Assembly: GCA_027214385.1 (NCBI GenBank)
Contig: JAPVXR010000001.1
Span: forward strand, 434,001 to 498,000
DNA from: Cryomorphaceae bacterium 1068
GTDB taxonomy: Bacteria; Bacteroidota; Bacteroidia; Flavobacteriales_D; Cryomorphaceae
Length of the DNA stretch: 64,000 nucleotides
Reading direction: 5' to 3'
Shown piece by piece: positions 19,309 through 26,363 of the stretch (its first letter is position 1; the number at the start of each line of letters is the position of its first letter). A program made the position numbers and the translations under genes. The notes beneath the pieces are model-generated. The model was not told the DNA's origin. It was given only the letters and a program-made list of their open reading frames with translations, and did no database searches.

Positions 19309-20472
19309 TTATTCCTTTTTCAGAGCAGCAATCTCTTTGAGCTTTTGTTTGGCACCCTCATTTTTGGGATCTAGCTCCAGCGATTTGCGATAAGCCGCCG
19401 CTGACTTTTCAAACTGCTCATTTTTAAAATACCCTTCACCCAAACTATCAAAAAGGTCGGCGTTATGCGGCATAAGTTTCGTCCCAAATTTGAATATTTC
19501 TATCGCGCCTTTGGCATCACCCTTATCATCGAGCCATTCATAGCCAATGGTGTTCACCATCCAAGAAAACCCCATTTGCTCGAACTCTTCCTCATTGATG
19601 GATTCTTCTCCGATTAGCTCTTCTAAGTAAAAGGTAGGGTGATCGGAATTATTGTATTGCTCATAGTTTCTGTATCCAGGGGAATCTTGCGGAAAGAGCT
19701 CGGCTATCATTACCTGATGGTCACCTTCTTGGATTTTTTCATCCAGTGTGAATTCAACAAAATTGGTGTAATCGTGAAAAAGATAAACCCTTACCGTGAG
19801 TTCTTGCAAGTCGTATACCGTAGTGTATTGTGTAGAACCTTCAGGACTCATCATGTTTTTCATGACTTCGCCGGTGTAATCGATTGTAGCCTTCCCTTCA
19901 CTTTCAGAAAGGTATTTCATTCCATTTCTGAAATTAACCAGTTCTACTTCATCAGTAGATTCGATTTGAGAGTAGTAAAAATTTGAAAAGCACTGTTCTG
20001 GTTCAGATCCTAAGATCAGTTCTTCGCCTTCTACGATGAGGTAGTCACCGTTTTTATCGACAAAAACAATCATCCCCGTAGTTAAAAAGCTCAGATCGAT
20101 GGTCGCTAAGTATTCTTTAATTTCAGCAACATCATTCATGGTTTGCATGATCTCGCGAACAGCATCGCTTATGGAAATCGAGACTTTACCCTCCGCATTG
20201 TTGACGGCCAGATAGTCCATGGCAAATCCATCAAAAACGAGTCCCGCGCTGTTCATAGCTCCTTGGGCAAAATTGTTTAGCTGGCCCATGTACATCACAT
20301 CATAGTGACCTTTTTTACCTCCTTCAAACCAAAATTTCGAGTTTGGACTTATCCAGTCTTCATTGTTGCCAACAATGGTTTTTCCAGCCTTGGTGATTTT
20401 GAACATGCTGCAGGCGTGGCTGTAAAATGGGGTTGAAACGATAAGTGAAATCGCGACGAGAAGAGCTTTCAT
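19309..20472 (-). CDS. Exported Ntn-hydrolase-like protein with C-terminal TPR
   Basis: The protein has 387 residues. The signal peptide (residues 1-20, ending YSHA) is followed at once by Cys21 in CSMFKIT, so cleavage would leave the nucleophile Cys of a linear-amide (choloylglycine hydrolase/acyltransferase) Ntn-hydrolase at the new N-terminus. GNNEDW (35-40) and SAGLVFDGFAMDYL match that fold. The last 70 residues form two TPR-like repeats (DLFDSLGEGYFKNEQFEKSA, YRKSLELDPKNEGAK). It should hydrolyse a C-N amide bond in the periplasm or outside the cell. Substrate is not predictable. It stands alone, 150 bases after the nucleoside hydrolase on the same strand. Confidence 0.75.
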   Translation of the reverse strand: MKALLVAISLIVSTPFYSHACSMFKITKAGKTIVGNNEDWISPNSKFWFEGGKKGHYDVMYMGQLNNFAQGAMNSAGLVFDGFAMDYLAVNNAEGKVSISISDAVREIMQTMNDVAEIKEYLATIDLSFLTTGMIVFVDKNGDYLIVEGEELILGSEPEQCFSNFYYSQIESTDEVELVNFRNGMKYLSESEGKATIDYTGEVMKNMMSPEGSTQYTTVYDLQELTVRVYLFHDYTNFVEFTLDEKIQEGDHQVMIAELFPQDSPGYRNYEQYNNSDHPTFYLEELIGEESINEEEFEQMGFSWMVNTIGYEWLDDKGDAKGAIEIFKFGTKLMPHNADLFDSLGEGYFKNEQFEKSAAAYRKSLELDPKNEGAKQKLKEIAALKKE

Positions 20473-20622: not shown

Positions 20623-21597
20623 CTACTCTTCCCACTTCAACGACTCGATCACAATCTCCTCAAAGCCCGGAAGGGTTCTGTAGGCAAAATCTACCTTCCA
20701 ATCGGAGGTGTATTCATAACCCGCCTCCAAGTAGTGCTTCTCATCTGAGCGCATTCGACCCATCGTCGCATCGTTCTTTCGATAATTGATTACAGTGGGC
20801 ATATCCTCATGAACAAGAAAATACTCAGGATGCGTTAAGTAGCCTAGAGGAGTGGTGTCGTATGGAATGAAACCAGGTATCCCGAACATGCCGCGTGCCC
20901 GCTCTTGCCATGGAACCATAAAGGCGTTAAGCCACTGGTCGTTTTTGCTTCCACTGGCTAAAAAGTCAGTATCGGTGCGGCTGAGCAGTAAATATTCGCT
21001 GCATTGAAAACCGCTTAATACGACTTTGATTCCCGCGTTCAGGACGACACGAAAAGCCTCCACATCTCTCTCGAAATTGTAATCGTGAACGGTGTTTTGC
21101 CTTAAGCCAGGTTGAAAGGCATAGCCCGTGGTGCGTCCCGCACAAAAGACAATCTCAGTAATTTGATCGGCCAATTCAGGGTGGTTCATTAGTACGGTCG
21201 CGACATTGGTGGCAGGTCCCAGAGCGAGTATGGCCATTTTTTCTTTTTTCAGGGCTTCCGCCAAAGCGTTCGATGCGTCCGTTTCCGTTCCCAAATCGTC
21301 GCAATCGGGTGAGCCTTTGTAAACGGGAATGTTTCTTTCGGGAGCGTATCTTTTCAGAATCTCCTCGGTGATTTCTTCGCCGTAATCCACCTCGGTGATA
21401 AGCGTGATTCCTGCAATTTCAATATTGTCTTGGGCCAAGGCCATAATCAGCGTTACGCCGTCGTCGATTTCTCGTGGTGCCCTTTCGGGGAGACCCATCA
21501 TGATGTCGGTATCAAACCAAATTCTCTTCGGAGTCTCTTGTGAAAATGCCGTTTGGCAAAAGGAAAAAGCAAAAAGTGCAAGTGCGAGTATTCTCAT
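20623..21597 (-). CDS. Periplasmic inosine/uridine-preferring nucleoside hydrolase family protein
   Basis: The protein has 324 residues. A signal peptide (to FSQ, residue 20) precedes WFDTD (27-31) and IDDG (44-47), the calcium-binding Asp cluster of the IUNH fold. The two halves, which are contiguous (DTDPGxDD) in typical members, are separated here by about a dozen residues. Later motifs ILALGPATNVATVL and the VHDYNFERDVEAFRVV segment also fit. It splits N-glycosidic bonds of nucleosides, here outside the cytoplasm. The start overlaps the stop of the kinase-like gene by the ATGA tetranucleotide, so the two are translationally coupled. Exact substrate is unknown. Confidence 0.85.
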   Translation of the reverse strand: MRILALALFAFSFCQTAFSQETPKRIWFDTDIMMGLPERAPREIDDGVTLIMALAQDNIEIAGITLITEVDYGEEITEEILKRYAPERNIPVYKGSPDCDDLGTETDASNALAEALKKEKMAILALGPATNVATVLMNHPELADQITEIVFCAGRTTGYAFQPGLRQNTVHDYNFERDVEAFRVVLNAGIKVVLSGFQCSEYLLLSRTDTDFLASGSKNDQWLNAFMVPWQERARGMFGIPGFIPYDTTPLGYLTHPEYFLVHEDMPTVINYRKNDATMGRMRSDEKHYLEAGYEYTSDWKVDFAYRTLPGFEEIVIESLKWEE

Positions 21598-22574
21598 AGG
21601 TTCAGTAAATTCAATGCTGTTTGAGTCAGTTCTTCCTTCTCTGAAATGGTGCGCGACAACGGCAGTTGTGCCACCCCAAAAAGGCGTCGCAAAATTTCAA
21701 TTCCGGCAAATTGATCGGCGCGGAGCTTATCGTAATCGCCATAGCGCCGCAAAATGGTGTTGATGCCTCTGTTGCTCATTCCGCAAAAAATCAAGTGGGC
21801 TTTGAAAACTCCCAGCTCAAACTCTACAGGACCCGAGAAGCAAAATTCAGGATCGATGATTTTCACCCCCTTCTCGGTATCGAGCCAACTGCCTGGAAAG
21901 AAATCGCCATGGAGCAGTGCGGGCCCTTTTACCGAAAGGTATATGTCGCCGAGTTCTGTTGCGGTTTTGCGCAGTTCTGGGTTATTCAAAACATACTTTT
22001 TTGCAAGTGCTTGAAGTCCTTTTTGAGTCTCGTCGAGGTTCAATCCACTTGTCGGATTAAAAGGTATGTCAAAAATATGTTGGTGGTTTAGTTCCCTCAT
22101 TTTGAAGTTTGATACAGCTGAGCTTTTTTGAGTCGAAGTGTGCAACAGCTGCAGAAACTCAACCAAATGATGCGTGAGGCGTGGAGGAAATTTGAGATCG
22201 GGTGAGTAGTATTTGGAATAGTCACCTTGTCGGCCCAAGTCTTCTATCACTTGAATGTGATTTTCGCCATCATAAAAAATCGCTCTAGGCAAATAGTGCG
22301 CTATTTTCTTAATTGACTTTGCCTCTGTGAAAAAGGTGTACTCCATCTCGGCTCGTTCTACCGGCGCAGCTATCGAGGGGTATTTCTGTACGAACGGATT
22401 GGCCTGTTTGACAATCAGGCTTCTCTCACTTAAATCAGCGCGCAAGGTCAGGTTCATATTTCCTTCTCCTGCCGTTGCCAAGTGAGTGATTTTTTCTTCG
22501 GTTTTGATCACCTCATTTTTCTTGAGGTAACTCTCTAAACTCGAGAGGTCTGTTACTTTGAGTTCAAATTTCAT
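21594..22574 (-). CDS. Methylthioribose-kinase-like (APH superfamily) phosphotransferase
   Basis: The protein has 326 residues, cytoplasmic. The fold is an aminoglycoside-phosphotransferase/choline-kinase-type kinase: glycine-rich loop GEGNMN (36-41), ATP-site lysine in LIVKQ (K56), Brenner motif HGDFFPGSW with catalytic D224, and metal-binding DPE (241-243). GEGNMNL, KQANPFVQKYP and APVERAE segments are those of S-methyl-5-thioribose kinases (MtnK) rather than antibiotic kinases. The gene lies 34 bases after a TonB-dependent receptor and overlaps a nucleoside hydrolase, suggesting the sugar released from an imported (methylthio)nucleoside is phosphorylated here. MtnK identity is an inference. 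Confidence 0.78.
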   Translation of the reverse strand: MKFELKVTDLSSLESYLKKNEVIKTEEKITHLATAGEGNMNLTLRADLSERSLIVKQANPFVQKYPSIAAPVERAEMEYTFFTEAKSIKKIAHYLPRAIFYDGENHIQVIEDLGRQGDYSKYYSPDLKFPPRLTHHLVEFLQLLHTSTQKSSAVSNFKMRELNHQHIFDIPFNPTSGLNLDETQKGLQALAKKYVLNNPELRKTATELGDIYLSVKGPALLHGDFFPGSWLDTEKGVKIIDPEFCFSGPVEFELGVFKAHLIFCGMSNRGINTILRRYGDYDKLRADQFAGIEILRRLFGVAQLPLSRTISEKEELTQTALNLLNL

Positions 22575-22608
22575 AGCTCTAAATCTGCTCTAAAAATAAC
22601 TCAATTTT

Positions 22609-25600
22609 TTAAAAGATGTATCGCGCTCCGAACTGGAATTGACGTGGCGGAGAAGCAGAATTCAATCGGTAGTTGTATGAGTCTGGAGGGCCTACTTGGG
22701 CTTGGTTACTCACCGATCGCGTCGTATTGTAGCCCGACCAGTTTTGAGCATTGAACAAATTGAATACATCTGCGCTAAATTCAATTCCTTGATTGTCTTT
22801 CCCAAAGCTCCAGAGGTATTTTACCGAAATGTCGAAGGTAGCAGCCCAAGGCAATCTGTCCGTATTTTCATCGACGCCAGGCCATCGGTCGGCAGGTAGA
22901 CCGAAGTTTTCTCCGTCTCCGTTTAGATCTCCTGTGAATCTTTGGTTTCCATCGTCATCAAAATAATAGAAAATCGTCGCATCAGCCACTCGTGTTACCG
23001 GCTGACCGCTTTGAATCAAAGCTGTTGGCGAAATGGATAATCCTTTGATAGGTTGATAAATCGTAACCGCACTCAATACATGGCGACGGTCATTCTCATC
23101 CCAGGTGTACTCTGCATCAAAATCGTTATTATCTTGAGCTCTGGTATTGATACTGCTGGTATTGCTTTTGGTCCAGCTCAAGGTGTAAAGCAATCGAAAT
23201 CCGAGTTTACCATCGTTCACTTCTTTTTGGAGCATAAAGTTCAACGCGGTGTATTCTGCACGGCCATCACCTGTAGTCATAAAAACGTTTCTGGTTCCGC
23301 CTCTGAGCGTATCGCCTTGAACCACGCTATAGAAACCGGCATCATCGCTGAATACGGCGACGGGTCGGCTGGCATCTGCTTCGTCTCTTGATCTGGCTAC
23401 GACATCGTCAGGGTCGATTCCCTCTTCAAAAAGATAAGGAGAGGCTACATTGAGATTCCTCACGACGTATAGATTTTCCGTACGCGTGTGTACCGCGTCA
23501 AATTTGAAGAGCGTCTCGTTATCGGGTTTGTATTGGTAACCAATAGAGAATTGATGACTGTATGGATTGTCCCAACCGTTTGGGTTGAGAATGCGTGTGT
23601 TGTTTCTAAATATACCTTCGCGCTCATCGCTGAGGTCTTCCGCGGTTGGCCCTTGCAAGTAGTCCACATCAGGAGCCGTGGCTTGGAGATTTCCTTCAAA
23701 GGTAATCCGATCTAAATCGGCATCGGCATCCAGTATTCCGAGTCTTTGAAGCTCGGCGAGCTGCGCTTTGAAATCGCTCGAGTTATTGCTGAACTGCAGC
23801 GCATCGCTGTAAACGGAGTACTTTATTTTATCGTAGAAGATCCCATAACCACCTCGGATCACACTGTTCTCAGTCAATTGAAAATTCAAACTGAATCTGG
23901 GGGCGATATTGTCCCAATCTCCCTCTGTTCCTCCTGATTTGGATAGATTGTCATAATCCCATCTCAATCCAATATTTGCCGTAAGGCGATTGTTGATGGA
24001 CCATCTGTCTTCGATGTAAGCGCTAGTCACATTTTGAGTTCTTCCGAGTGATCTCGGCCGCAACTCCACATCGTATTGAAACACGGATGCATCAGACGGA
24101 ACATCGTTTACATTCAAATCTGCACCCACGCCGCTATTGCGAATTTCGGCGAGTTGCTCTTCGTTCAAATCAACCAGGTAACTCCCGTTGGGATTCCCAC
24201 CTCCTGTCAAGTTGAAATCGGAAGTGATGAATTCAACACCTGCCTTGATATAGTGATTTCCTGCATCGTAAAACCACTTGTTTTGGAATTGGTGCGTGTA
24301 TTCTTTGTCGTCGAATATGGAACCTGCCTGACCAATAACTGCTATGGTCTGCTGCATAGGATCTCTTAGTGTCACAGAGGGGTTTTCGGGATTCACAGGC
24401 TGCCGATAATTCCAGCGGAAATAGCTGTGTAAGTAGTTTACCTCGGTGCTCAATCGGCTATTGATTACTCCGGTGTTTTTAAAGGCAATGAGGTACGTAT
24501 CGTTGTCCTGAGCCGAGGCTGCCGACGGAAAGGTTACTCCGCCTTCCAGTCCACCACCTTGACGGTCTATGTAGATTCTTCCTACCTGTCCGCGAAGTGA
24601 GGATCGCCATTTGTTGGACCAACTGTGGTCTATTTTCCCGCTTATGAATGTGAAATAGTTGTTTCCACGAACCGTCTCGTTTACGTCGAGTTCGGGTGAA
24701 TTCAAGAGATTGTCTTTGATGTCAATCGTTTGCTCTGCATTGATGTAAAGGAATGTCTTGTTCTTCTTGATGGGTGCACCAACTGAGAACCCGAATTGGT
24801 GGCGCTGGAAACCATCTTTCACCAAGTTCCCCGAAAGGTCGCGCTGAGCAAAATCAGAGGGTGAGTCAATCACCGATCCTGGGCGAGTCAAGTAAAATGC
24901 TTCACCCGTTACCTCATTTGTTCCTGAGCGACTCAGCACATTGACAATTCCATTGCTCGAATTTCCCCACTCTGCAGAGTAGTTATTGGTTAGAACGGTC
25001 ACGTTTTCTACAAATCCAACGGGCGTGTTAATCTTCATGTTTCCCAGAAACCGCTCGTTATTGTCCATTCCATCTACGAGGTAATTGGTAAAGATTCCAT
25101 TCAACCCGTTGATGCTGATATTTGGCCCTTCAGCGTATCCCAAAACAGCTTGGGTCACATTCGGTAAGCGGTACAAGCCCCTCGTCACATCGCGACCCTC
25201 GATGGGCATTTTCATAAACTCTTCTTTCTTGAGCTGACCTGAGACAGTAGCATCTTGCCGATTCATTTTGGCCATAGGCGAACTTGTTATCAAGACTTCT
25301 CCTAAGCTGGCCGACATGCGGTCGGGTACTTGCATCAAATACTTTTTGCCACCGTCTACGCTTAGTTCGGGTGAGGCGGTATACTGGTATTTGTTATTGT
25401 CTTCTACAAAAACGCGGTACTTAGCAGTGGCTTCCAAGTTTTGGAAAACCACCTCTCCCTTTTTATCGGTAAAATCGGAAATGATGTCTTTGGGGCCCAC
25501 AAGAAATACCTCCATGCTATCTATTGGCGTGGATTGAGTCAATGATTTAAGGGTGATCGTGAGGGTTTGCGCTTGCGCAAAAAAAGGCAGTAAGGCCAAG

Positions 25601-25626
25601 GCACAAAGTGTGTATAGCTTTTTCAT
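22609..25626 (-). CDS. TonB-dependent receptor (Oar-like)
   Basis: The protein has 1005 residues: signal peptide (to FAQAQ, residue 20), a carboxypeptidase regulatory-like Ig domain (about 21-105, ITLKSLTQSTPIDSMEVFL), a TonB plug (about 120-240, with GRDVTRGLYRLPNVTQAV, VDGMDNNERFLGN and NNYSAEWGNSSNGIVNVLSR) and a 22-strand-type barrel with the C-terminal aromatic pattern FQFGARYIF. The plug motif ISINGLNGIFTNYLVDG is characteristic of Oar/CirA-like receptors. It lies 34 bases upstream of the kinase and nucleoside-hydrolase genes on the same strand and probably shares their transcript, pointing to a nucleoside-related ligand by inference only. No SusD partner is present. Confidence 0.9.
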   Translation of the reverse strand: MKKLYTLCALALLPFFAQAQTLTITLKSLTQSTPIDSMEVFLVGPKDIISDFTDKKGEVVFQNLEATAKYRVFVEDNNKYQYTASPELSVDGGKKYLMQVPDRMSASLGEVLITSSPMAKMNRQDATVSGQLKKEEFMKMPIEGRDVTRGLYRLPNVTQAVLGYAEGPNISINGLNGIFTNYLVDGMDNNERFLGNMKINTPVGFVENVTVLTNNYSAEWGNSSNGIVNVLSRSGTNEVTGEAFYLTRPGSVIDSPSDFAQRDLSGNLVKDGFQRHQFGFSVGAPIKKNKTFLYINAEQTIDIKDNLLNSPELDVNETVRGNNYFTFISGKIDHSWSNKWRSSLRGQVGRIYIDRQGGGLEGGVTFPSAASAQDNDTYLIAFKNTGVINSRLSTEVNYLHSYFRWNYRQPVNPENPSVTLRDPMQQTIAVIGQAGSIFDDKEYTHQFQNKWFYDAGNHYIKAGVEFITSDFNLTGGGNPNGSYLVDLNEEQLAEIRNSGVGADLNVNDVPSDASVFQYDVELRPRSLGRTQNVTSAYIEDRWSINNRLTANIGLRWDYDNLSKSGGTEGDWDNIAPRFSLNFQLTENSVIRGGYGIFYDKIKYSVYSDALQFSNNSSDFKAQLAELQRLGILDADADLDRITFEGNLQATAPDVDYLQGPTAEDLSDEREGIFRNNTRILNPNGWDNPYSHQFSIGYQYKPDNETLFKFDAVHTRTENLYVVRNLNVASPYLFEEGIDPDDVVARSRDEADASRPVAVFSDDAGFYSVVQGDTLRGGTRNVFMTTGDGRAEYTALNFMLQKEVNDGKLGFRLLYTLSWTKSNTSSINTRAQDNNDFDAEYTWDENDRRHVLSAVTIYQPIKGLSISPTALIQSGQPVTRVADATIFYYFDDDGNQRFTGDLNGDGENFGLPADRWPGVDENTDRLPWAATFDISVKYLWSFGKDNQGIEFSADVFNLFNAQNWSGYNTTRSVSNQAQVGPPDSYNYRLNSASPPRQFQFGARYIF

Positions 25627-25670: not shown

Positions 25671-26363
25671 TTATGAGGCCAGTCGGAGGGGTGGAGCTCG
25701 ATCAGAAATTTTAAATTCACTCAAGCGGAGGTTGATCGCAGGAGTGTAATTTCTACCCGTCGAAGGAACGGCAAGTATTCCTTTTATCTCCTTTCGGAAA
25801 AGAGTTTTTTTAGAATCAGATGAGAAGGAGCGGAGCCACCTTTTCAGCGATTTCTCATCGTCTACATCGATGAGGGTCGGGAGCTCCTCATATTTCCCCA
25901 GGAGGCTGCCGAGTCTTGCGTGAGTCTCTCCCGGAACCTTGAGAGCTCGGCAAAATGCCGTTTCTTTAAAATCCTTTTCTCGAATACCGATGAGGTAGTT
26001 TCCTCCATCGAGGGAAGGTCCCAAAACGGGATTTCCATCGGCAAGCTCATTTGCTGCTTGAATCAGAGTCTTCGCATCAAGATCAGGAGTGTCGTTTCCA
26101 ACGGCAATGACATTTTGATAGCCTTTGGCGAAGGCCTCCGAAAAAGCGTGAGCGAGTCTTTCAGCCAGGTTTTCACCTTCTTGATTCGCTTCGTTTGAGA
26201 GAAGTATTGTCAGTCCTGTCGCTCTAATGGTGCTAAGCGTGTGGCGACTGAGTCGGTCGATTAACCGACCATGGACATCTCTTTCAGAAAAGCGGTTTCG
26301 CTTATAATCTTCGCCGGCGCTGCGGGCGAAATAGATGATAGCGGTTTTAGACGGGTGAAGCAT
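25671..26363 (-). CDS. DUF2064/TIGR04282 family glycosyltransferase-like protein
   Basis: The protein has 230 residues, cytoplasmic. The Rossmann-like nucleotidyl/glycosyltransferase core is seen in VIAVGNDTPDL (metal-binding Asp), GNPVLGPSLDGGNYLIGI and TLIDVDDEKSLKRW. These are the diagnostic motifs of the DUF2064 (TIGR04282) family, sometimes linked to arsenosugar or other small-glycoside synthesis. A basic C-terminal extension after residue 185 is not typical. It ends 44 bases before the TonB-dependent receptor, so it may share that transcript. No arsenic or sugar genes are nearby, so the role here is open. Confidence 0.82.
   Translation of the reverse strand: MLHPSKTAIIYFARSAGEDYKRNRFSERDVHGRLIDRLSRHTLSTIRATGLTILLSNEANQEGENLAERLAHAFSEAFAKGYQNVIAVGNDTPDLDAKTLIQAANELADGNPVLGPSLDGGNYLIGIREKDFKETAFCRALKVPGETHARLGSLLGKYEELPTLIDVDDEKSLKRWLRSFSSDSKKTLFRKEIKGILAVPSTGRNYTPAINLRLSEFKISDRAPPLRLAS

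Follow-up and report, generated by a model that had tools for sequence, protein, structure and literature searches.

A candidate riboside salvage operon with a kinase of the methylthioribose kinase fold in a Cryomorphaceae bacterium

Cryomorphaceae bacterium 1068, a member of the Bacteroidota, carries in the 64,000-nucleotide stretch of DNA analysed here (the window; positions 434,001 to 498,000 of contig JAPVXR010000001.1, assembly GCA_027214385.1) four genes whose open reading frames (ORFs) all run in the same direction. In order of transcription, on the minus strand, they encode a DUF2064 protein, a TonB-dependent outer-membrane receptor, a kinase resembling methylthioribose kinase (MTRK) and a nucleoside hydrolase, with 44 bases between the first two genes, 34 between the receptor and kinase genes, and a 4-base ATGA overlap between the last two. 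The best explanation of this arrangement, and one that we consider reasonably probable, is a riboside salvage operon. A preliminary description of this DNA had proposed the receptor, kinase and hydrolase as one salvage unit, with the 34-base gap, the overlap and a signal peptide on the hydrolase; taken as a whole, that interpretation is partly supported. All three ORFs are open where it placed them, Pfam scans assign each to a family (APH for the kinase), both junctions are present in the sequence, and the N-terminus of the hydrolase is strongly hydrophobic by simple hydropathy. The trio stands; a fourth co-directional gene, for DUF2064, had been overlooked upstream of the receptor.

The protein families, gene order, linkage, motifs and location signals described below point to a probable class of substrate, a direction of flow and a set of enzymatic steps. 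A ribofuranoside, nucleoside-like and probably with a changed 5′ carbon, would cross the outer membrane through the TonB receptor. In the version found in the window, it would be cleaved at its glycosidic bond by the exported nucleoside hydrolase while still in the periplasm; the sugar so released would enter by a permease encoded outside this operon, and the MTRK-like kinase would phosphorylate the anomeric oxygen to give an alpha-sugar 1-phosphate. In relatives with an adjoining ATP-binding cassette (ABC) importer, the whole riboside would be imported and cut in the cytosol. That the hydrolase acts before the kinase, as previously suggested, is likely.

Linkage of the kinase and hydrolase genes

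One line of evidence for this explanation is the recurrent pairing of the kinase with a ribosyl hydrolase. We compared 82 kinases, namely that of the window, one from the relative G004 (L005) and 80 from named genomes, L004 having been dropped as a copy of L046; these 80 were the best of 400 found through two peptide patterns, and alignment columns inside those patterns are biased. A ribosyl hydrolase gene directly adjoins the kinase gene in 60 of the 82 loci, the partners being 35 nucleoside hydrolases (27 on the same strand, 8 on the opposite one) and 25 ADP-ribosylglycohydrolases (ARHs; 24 and 1, respectively). Mapping the partner label on the kinase tree, which has 81 rows, takes no fewer than 15 changes, and a minimum of four on starred branches is required by where the ARHs fall. 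Since the type of hydrolase changes repeatedly along the tree, the pairing outlives the particular hydrolase. The receptor-kinase-hydrolase order is preceded by a DUF2064 gene in the window and ten other loci. Four Eudoraea loci (L059, L060, L061 and L075) hold the kinase and an ARH followed by uxaC, a mannonate-oxidoreductase-like gene and uxuA, the gene families having been scanned in L059 and assigned by clustering in the other three.

The kinase itself is patchily distributed, with representatives in 3/60 relatives of the window, 3/399 genomes of the order and 16/395 genomes of the phylum. Within the family it occurs in three of eight genomes (that of the window included), always with neighbouring genes for a nucleoside hydrolase and for a receptor of TonB or SusC type, and the receptor type and gene order of the other two differ from those of the window. 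The preliminary description had named unlinking of the genes in close relatives as grounds for abandoning its proposal; none was seen, all three kinase-bearing genomes of the family keeping the linkage, and the idea that receptor, kinase and hydrolase form one recurring unit gains support from relatives. The window-type hydrolase and the kinase were found in the same genomes of the order (2/60 and 3/60), the hydrolase of the third kinase genome being cut off by a contig end.

Several observations weigh against the salvage explanation. There is no hydrolase next to the kinase in 22 of the 82 loci; two of these have one further off, and in 20 there is none in the fetched DNA, which in five cases reaches a contig end. 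The full receptor-kinase-hydrolase order was seen in only 14 loci, the window included, and the tailed DUF2064 gene discussed below in 15, many contigs being short in both counts; among the same 82 loci, no kinase-ARH locus contains the tailed gene. No sugar permease gene is adjacent in the window, as had already been remarked of the sugar's route of entry, although an ABC importer is visible in some relatives. With MtnA absent from the genome, no enzyme that would use the sugar 1-phosphate was identified there. Related operons, moreover, combine an MTAP-like phosphorylase and a further MTRK-like kinase of a second type, side by side, which would be redundant if both enzymes yield a sugar 1-phosphate. 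Because adjacency reaches 60 of the 82 loci but the full order of the window only 14, we take the kinase-hydrolase pair to be the core of the system and the receptor to be one of several additions.

A separate branch of the methylthioribose kinase fold

The kinase contains a PF01636 (APH) domain at 25.3 bits (cut-off 23.2), and its best NCBIfam match is the MTRK family TIGR01767 at 117.9 bits, short of the curated cut-off of 275; six other window-type kinases score 112–134. It aligns with the MTRK of B. subtilis over most of its length and is 71 residues shorter. The MTRK motifs comprise a GXGNXN G-loop, an HGD loop, IDXEF, and a twin arginine with E or K three residues upstream, and MTRK uses the corresponding residues to bind Mg and the O1 and O2/O3 atoms of the sugar (PMC2194712). 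The window kinase has the whole set, with IDPEF and E293-R296-R297, and residues D224, D241, E243, F244, E293, R296 and R297 are invariant in 82/82 kinases including that of the window; rows that begin at a late start codon have a gap where the G-loop starts. Throughout the 82, a hydrophobic residue (L, I or V) stands opposite the MTRK cap residue L345. The tryptophan of the W-loop, which caps the 5-methylthio group in MTRK and is semi-conserved among MTRKs, is replaced in all 82 by I, V or L at position 68 (aligned through structure 2OLC). The predicted model (predicted local distance difference test, pLDDT, 89.9) finds MTRKs as its best fold matches (Z 29.8–33.0), and PsiK, at Z 29.7, is close to the true MTRKs; PsiK is an MTRK-fold kinase with a non-sugar substrate, a tryptamine, and has lost the RR motif (PMC11808438).

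By sequence, then, the kinase is a separate branch of the MTRK fold that keeps the catalytic and ribose-binding residues. It is like MtnK (TIGR01767) and DrdK in its fold and in its G-loop, HGD, IDXEF and RR motifs, and unlike them in its smaller size, lack of the W-loop tryptophan, subthreshold family score, linkage to a hydrolase and residence in a genome without MtnA. DrdK accepts 5-deoxyribose and methylthioribose and not ribose (PMC6079011). Because the wall holding the 5-substituent differs from that of true MTRKs, the sugar is probably not 5-methylthioribose, and we infer that the substrate is a ribofuranose whose 5-position is unlike that of methylthioribose.

The genomic context also separates the kinase from methionine salvage. 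A search for MtnA, which the preliminary description had recommended, gave no match in the window genome with a profile that found it in 9/14 control genomes, and MtnA was not found in 47/52 kinase carriers searched. Its absence makes ordinary methylthioribose recycling unlikely, so the kinase product would not normally be fed into methionine salvage. Nor does the window genome encode a ribokinase over the curated cut-off, the best match reaching 68.9 of 299.65 bits.

Hydrolase, compartment and import route

The hydrolase shares the PF01156 domain and a conserved aspartate set with RihA, RihB and RihC, and misses the curated RihA, RihB, RihC and UriH equivalogs at 66, 53, 40 and 35 bits, against cut-offs of 382–459. 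Its D29, D31, D45 and D46 are present in 26 of the 27 aligned rows (one is gapped there), and D247 and N174 in all 27; the conserved aspartates presumably form the metal and substrate site. Nucleoside hydrolases carry a DTDPGxDD motif, and the window protein departs from the Rih enzymes in having a longer loop between DTD and DD and an export signal.

Hydrolases with a complete N-terminus mostly look exported, whether by a Sec-type signal (as in the window), a Tat-like signal (with an MQRRTF start) or, among ARHs, a lipoprotein-type signal, as judged by eye and hydropathy. An ABC importer, consisting of a binding protein (NF008633), permeases and an ATPase, is added to loci of Cryomorpha, Portibacter, Psychroflexus and Pedobacter and to those of three survey genomes. 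A signal peptide, called by eye and where the hydropathy of the first residues reached about 2, is absent from 7/7 ABC-linked hydrolases and present in 20/23 without ABC genes (Fisher p = 6e-5; all Fisher tests here ignore shared ancestry), with L032 counted as bearing one through an in-frame upstream extension and L019, L027 and L030 as without. We read this as two layouts of what would be one pathway, in which either the riboside is cut outside and the sugar imported, or the riboside is imported and cut inside.

Receptors and the comparison with Rus

On the receptor tree, two starred groups take in all 18 receptors found beside both kinase and hydrolase. Relatives have a receptor of the window type, a SusC/SusD pair, or the two together, and no SusD was found among the scanned neighbouring genes of the window. 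The receptor of the ArsM operons L148 and L150 (gene families of L148 being from a profile scan) was first taken as window-type and scored only 98 bits in a stricter test, so this link was dropped.

Among Bacteroidota, the Rus locus combines a SusC/D receptor with a nucleoside hydrolase and ribokinases. The window likewise joins genes for such a hydrolase and for a sugar kinase in a single operon; it differs in having an OMP_b-brl_4 TonB receptor where Rus has the SusC/SusD pair, an MTRK-like kinase where Rus has PfkB ribokinases, and a tailed DUF2064 gene in first place, with an ABC importer added in some relatives. Rus (BT2803-2809) scavenges ribose in Bacteroides thetaiotaomicron, with nucleosides in the published scheme, and free ribose is transported to the cytoplasm before it is phosphorylated (PMC12596196). 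The preliminary statement that TonB-linked nucleoside salvage is undescribed was thus too strong (PMC12596196). Scavenging of this general kind is already known from Rus, and what sets the present system apart is the receptor family, the MTRK-like kinase and the tailed DUF2064 protein.

The tailed DUF2064 protein

The first protein of the operon matches TIGR04282, the arsenosugar glycosyltransferase family, at 80 bits, under the cut-off of 134; it is homologous to that family over the middle of the domain and differs in having a C-terminal tail and no KTRL motif. It belongs to a KTRL-less subfamily whose members have the pattern [RKH][GA][PS]P within a few residues of the C-terminus. Among 65 DUF2064 sequences, all 52 without KTRL are tailed, all 13 with KTRL are tail-less, and none has both or neither, the 52 having been sorted by presence of the tail and absence of KTRL and most of them found by a profile that favours the tail. 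They include repeats of the same gene (L144 = L080, L145 = L106), and L173, L103 and L007 lack the N-terminus. The third codon positions of the motif vary between relatives, which indicates selection on the protein. The model has a mean pLDDT of 78.5 with a disordered tail (Table 1), and the profile matches PDB 3CGX. Varying third positions and predicted disorder together make the tail look like a protein-binding motif, and the protein is a non-canonical relative of nucleotidyl and glycosyl transferases with an exposed C-terminal motif, for which we infer a role in binding a partner. A regulatory RNA behind the conserved 3′ end of the gene was considered and rejected, given the variable third positions and an Rfam search that, at gathering scores, finds only a tRNA in the window.

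Among 395 genomes of the phylum, the tailed gene occurs in 7/16 that carry the kinase and in 26/379 others (p = 1e-4), and in six of the seven genomes with both, the two lie in one locus and run in the same direction. We also surveyed 32 tail loci chosen by profile matches, nearly all of which were full length; this choice favours the tail, and G573, with a match ending short of it, was excluded. Downstream of the tailed gene, 28 of the loci have a TonB or SusC receptor, 8 have ArsS and 5 a window-type kinase. Six have a second MTRK-like kinase, accompanied in five by an MTAP-like phosphorylase. These second-type kinases were told apart by having no match at E 1e-40 and by the scores of four of the six (L155, L156, L158 and L168), which reach 56–87 bits against TIGR01767. 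The operons of L151, L155, L156, L158 and L167 combine the tailed gene with a window-type TonB receptor, the MTAP-like phosphorylase and the second kinase, and four of the five have an ABC importer; in the full-length kinases of L155, L156 and L158, MGD replaces HGD, and RA or RT replaces RR.

Other neighbours of the tailed gene include rSAM186, a radical S-adenosylmethionine (SAM) protein of no named family, which recurs beside it in seven loci (L145, L170, L171, L172, L173, L105 and L063), six of them with a window-type TonB receptor. On contig 16 of G627, a kinase gene lies about 2 kb from a tail-less TIGR04282-like match, far from the tailed operon of the same genome.

Alternative explanations

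Ordinary scavenging of ribose and nucleosides, as by Rus, with this kinase in place of ribokinase, would run through the same steps, from uptake through release of the sugar to its phosphorylation (PMC12596196), and fits the lack of a ribokinase over the curated cut-off in the window genome; we think it possible, though rather doubtful, since the MTRK relative DrdK does not use ribose (PMC6079011), the cap residue aligned with L345 is hydrophobic in every kinase, and related operons include an MTAP-like phosphorylase, of a class that serves 5′-substituted nucleosides. The same phosphorylase and the MTRK-like character of the kinase speak for salvage of methylthioadenosine, which the preliminary description had suggested as a possibility, or of 5′-deoxyadenosine, and yet the lack of MtnA in the window genome and in most carriers, the loss of the W-loop tryptophan and a score of 118 of the required 275 bits tell against methylthioadenosine by the usual route and make this a distinctly unlikely account. 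A reading in which the kinase acts on something other than a sugar, its linkage to hydrolases arising from some other shared pathway, is very improbable. PsiK, which acts on a tryptamine, fits the model nearly as well as MTRKs do, and the W-loop is unlike that of MTRK, but the twin arginine that PsiK has lost (PMC11808438) is invariant here, and the gene usually found next to the kinase encodes a ribosyl hydrolase, from more than one family.

A special case of riboside salvage concerns arsenic. The imported compound might be an arsenosugar or its nucleoside (5-deoxy-5-dimethylarsinoyl ribosides), which we regard as unlikely; the hydrolase would then free the arseno-ribose, and the kinase, with its altered 5-substituent wall, would make the 1-phosphate. 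Because the same tailed protein occurs in ArsS operons of other Bacteroidota, an organoarsenical riboside is a live but unproven substrate. The operon could then conceivably, though improbably, be an uptake-and-salvage counterpart of arsenosugar biosynthesis, comprising arseno-riboside import (TonB/SusC and ABC importer), sugar release and phosphorylation. Equally tentative, at the same low level, is the suggestion that tailed DUF2064 proteins mark the importers, with the hydrolase or the MTAP-like phosphorylase freeing 5-deoxy-5-dimethylarsinoyl-ribose for the new branch of MTRK-like kinases. Nine of the surveyed genomes carry both the tailed gene and ArsS, and in eight of them no more than about 10 kb separates the two; six of these eight loci also hold AhpD-like (111 amino acids), ArsM, rhodanese and PNP genes, but all eight cases belong to one family (f17). 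Within the window's own order, the tailed gene stands beside ArsS in L109 and L111. ArsS and ArsM in these loci are above curated cut-offs where scanned. A SusC-SusD-SSF-phosphoesterase module of three ArsS loci directly precedes a window-type operon in Pedobacter L063, its SusC being 60–61% identical to those of the ArsS loci. In Flavobacteriaceae, L062 among them, kinase-ARH pairs lie near TIGR04282, PNP, AsSugarArsM and TIGR04283 genes, a GH32 gene on the other strand separating the pair from the AsSugarArsM cluster, and in an Acidobacteria metagenome-assembled genome (L027) the kinase and hydrolase follow TIGR04282- and TIGR04283-like genes identified by clustering. Also in keeping with an arsenic link, a radical SAM enzyme adenosylates arsenic as part of the arsenosugar pathway (PMC12159101).

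Against this stand the window genome itself, which has no ArsS (TIGR04167, at E 1e-60) and whose best ArsM match (NF038099) reaches 23.9 of 400 bits, and the lack of ArsS enrichment both in kinase genomes (4/16 against 151/379; p = 0.30) and in tail genomes (9/33 against 146/362; p = 0.19). Kinase and ArsS occur together in 0/32 surveyed tail loci, and the TonB receptor of the ArsM operons L148 and L150 is only distantly related to the window type. Because of these results, we leave salvage of arsenosugars at a low probability. A general role of the kinase in arsenosugar biosynthesis was rejected, as 37/52 carriers lack AsSugarArsM and ArsS is not enriched; AsSugarArsM exceeds its cut-off in 15/52 carriers and 7/60 relatives of the window, two sets from different lineages. 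ArsS, the arsenosugar radical SAM enzyme, is itself over cut-off in 155/395 genomes of the phylum, where arsenosugar-type genes look common, and arsenosugars are the main form of arsenic in seaweeds (PMC5478658).

Gene layout and other features of the window

Table 1. Features of the candidate riboside salvage operon, in order of transcription
Feature	Coordinates	Strand	Remarks
DUF2064 gene, first of operon, divergent, CofC/GT-A-like	25671..26363	-	230 amino acids; PF09837 73 bits
R-A-P-P codons (residues 222-225), C-terminal motif in predicted disordered tail	25689..25700	-	codon variation; pLDDT <50 at 202-230
TonB-dependent outer-membrane receptor, plug and OMP_b-brl_4 barrel	22609..25626	-	1005 amino acids; PF25183 194 bits
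MTRK-like kinase	21594..22574	-	326 amino acids; GEGNMN, HGD, DPEF and RR present; W-loop Trp absent
Nucleoside hydrolase, N-terminal signal peptide by hydropathy	20623..21597	-	PF01156 95.6 bits, cut-off 34.2

On the 3′ side of the hydrolase gene lies a gene (19309-20472, minus strand) whose product is weakly C45-acyltransferase-like (35 bits, 85 required) with a C-terminal TPR stretch, and which was not seen as a member of the conserved unit. Promoter- and terminator-like sites in the window are no more frequent than in shuffles. Membership in a defence system was considered and set aside, PADLOC having given no match for the DUF2064 protein, the kinase or the hydrolase. ORF calls and script labels throughout are mechanical.

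Implications

Should the arsenic reading be true, the operon would represent a bacterial route for taking up and recycling arsenosugars, on which targeted searches of the open-licence literature found no paper. In riboside salvage more generally, the switch between a signal peptide and an ABC importer suggests a way for a single salvage step to shift between the periplasm and the cytosol. The kinases described here form an uncharacterised MTRK-like branch that is marked out by its usual neighbour, a ribosyl hydrolase, and for which there is now a short list of candidate substrates.

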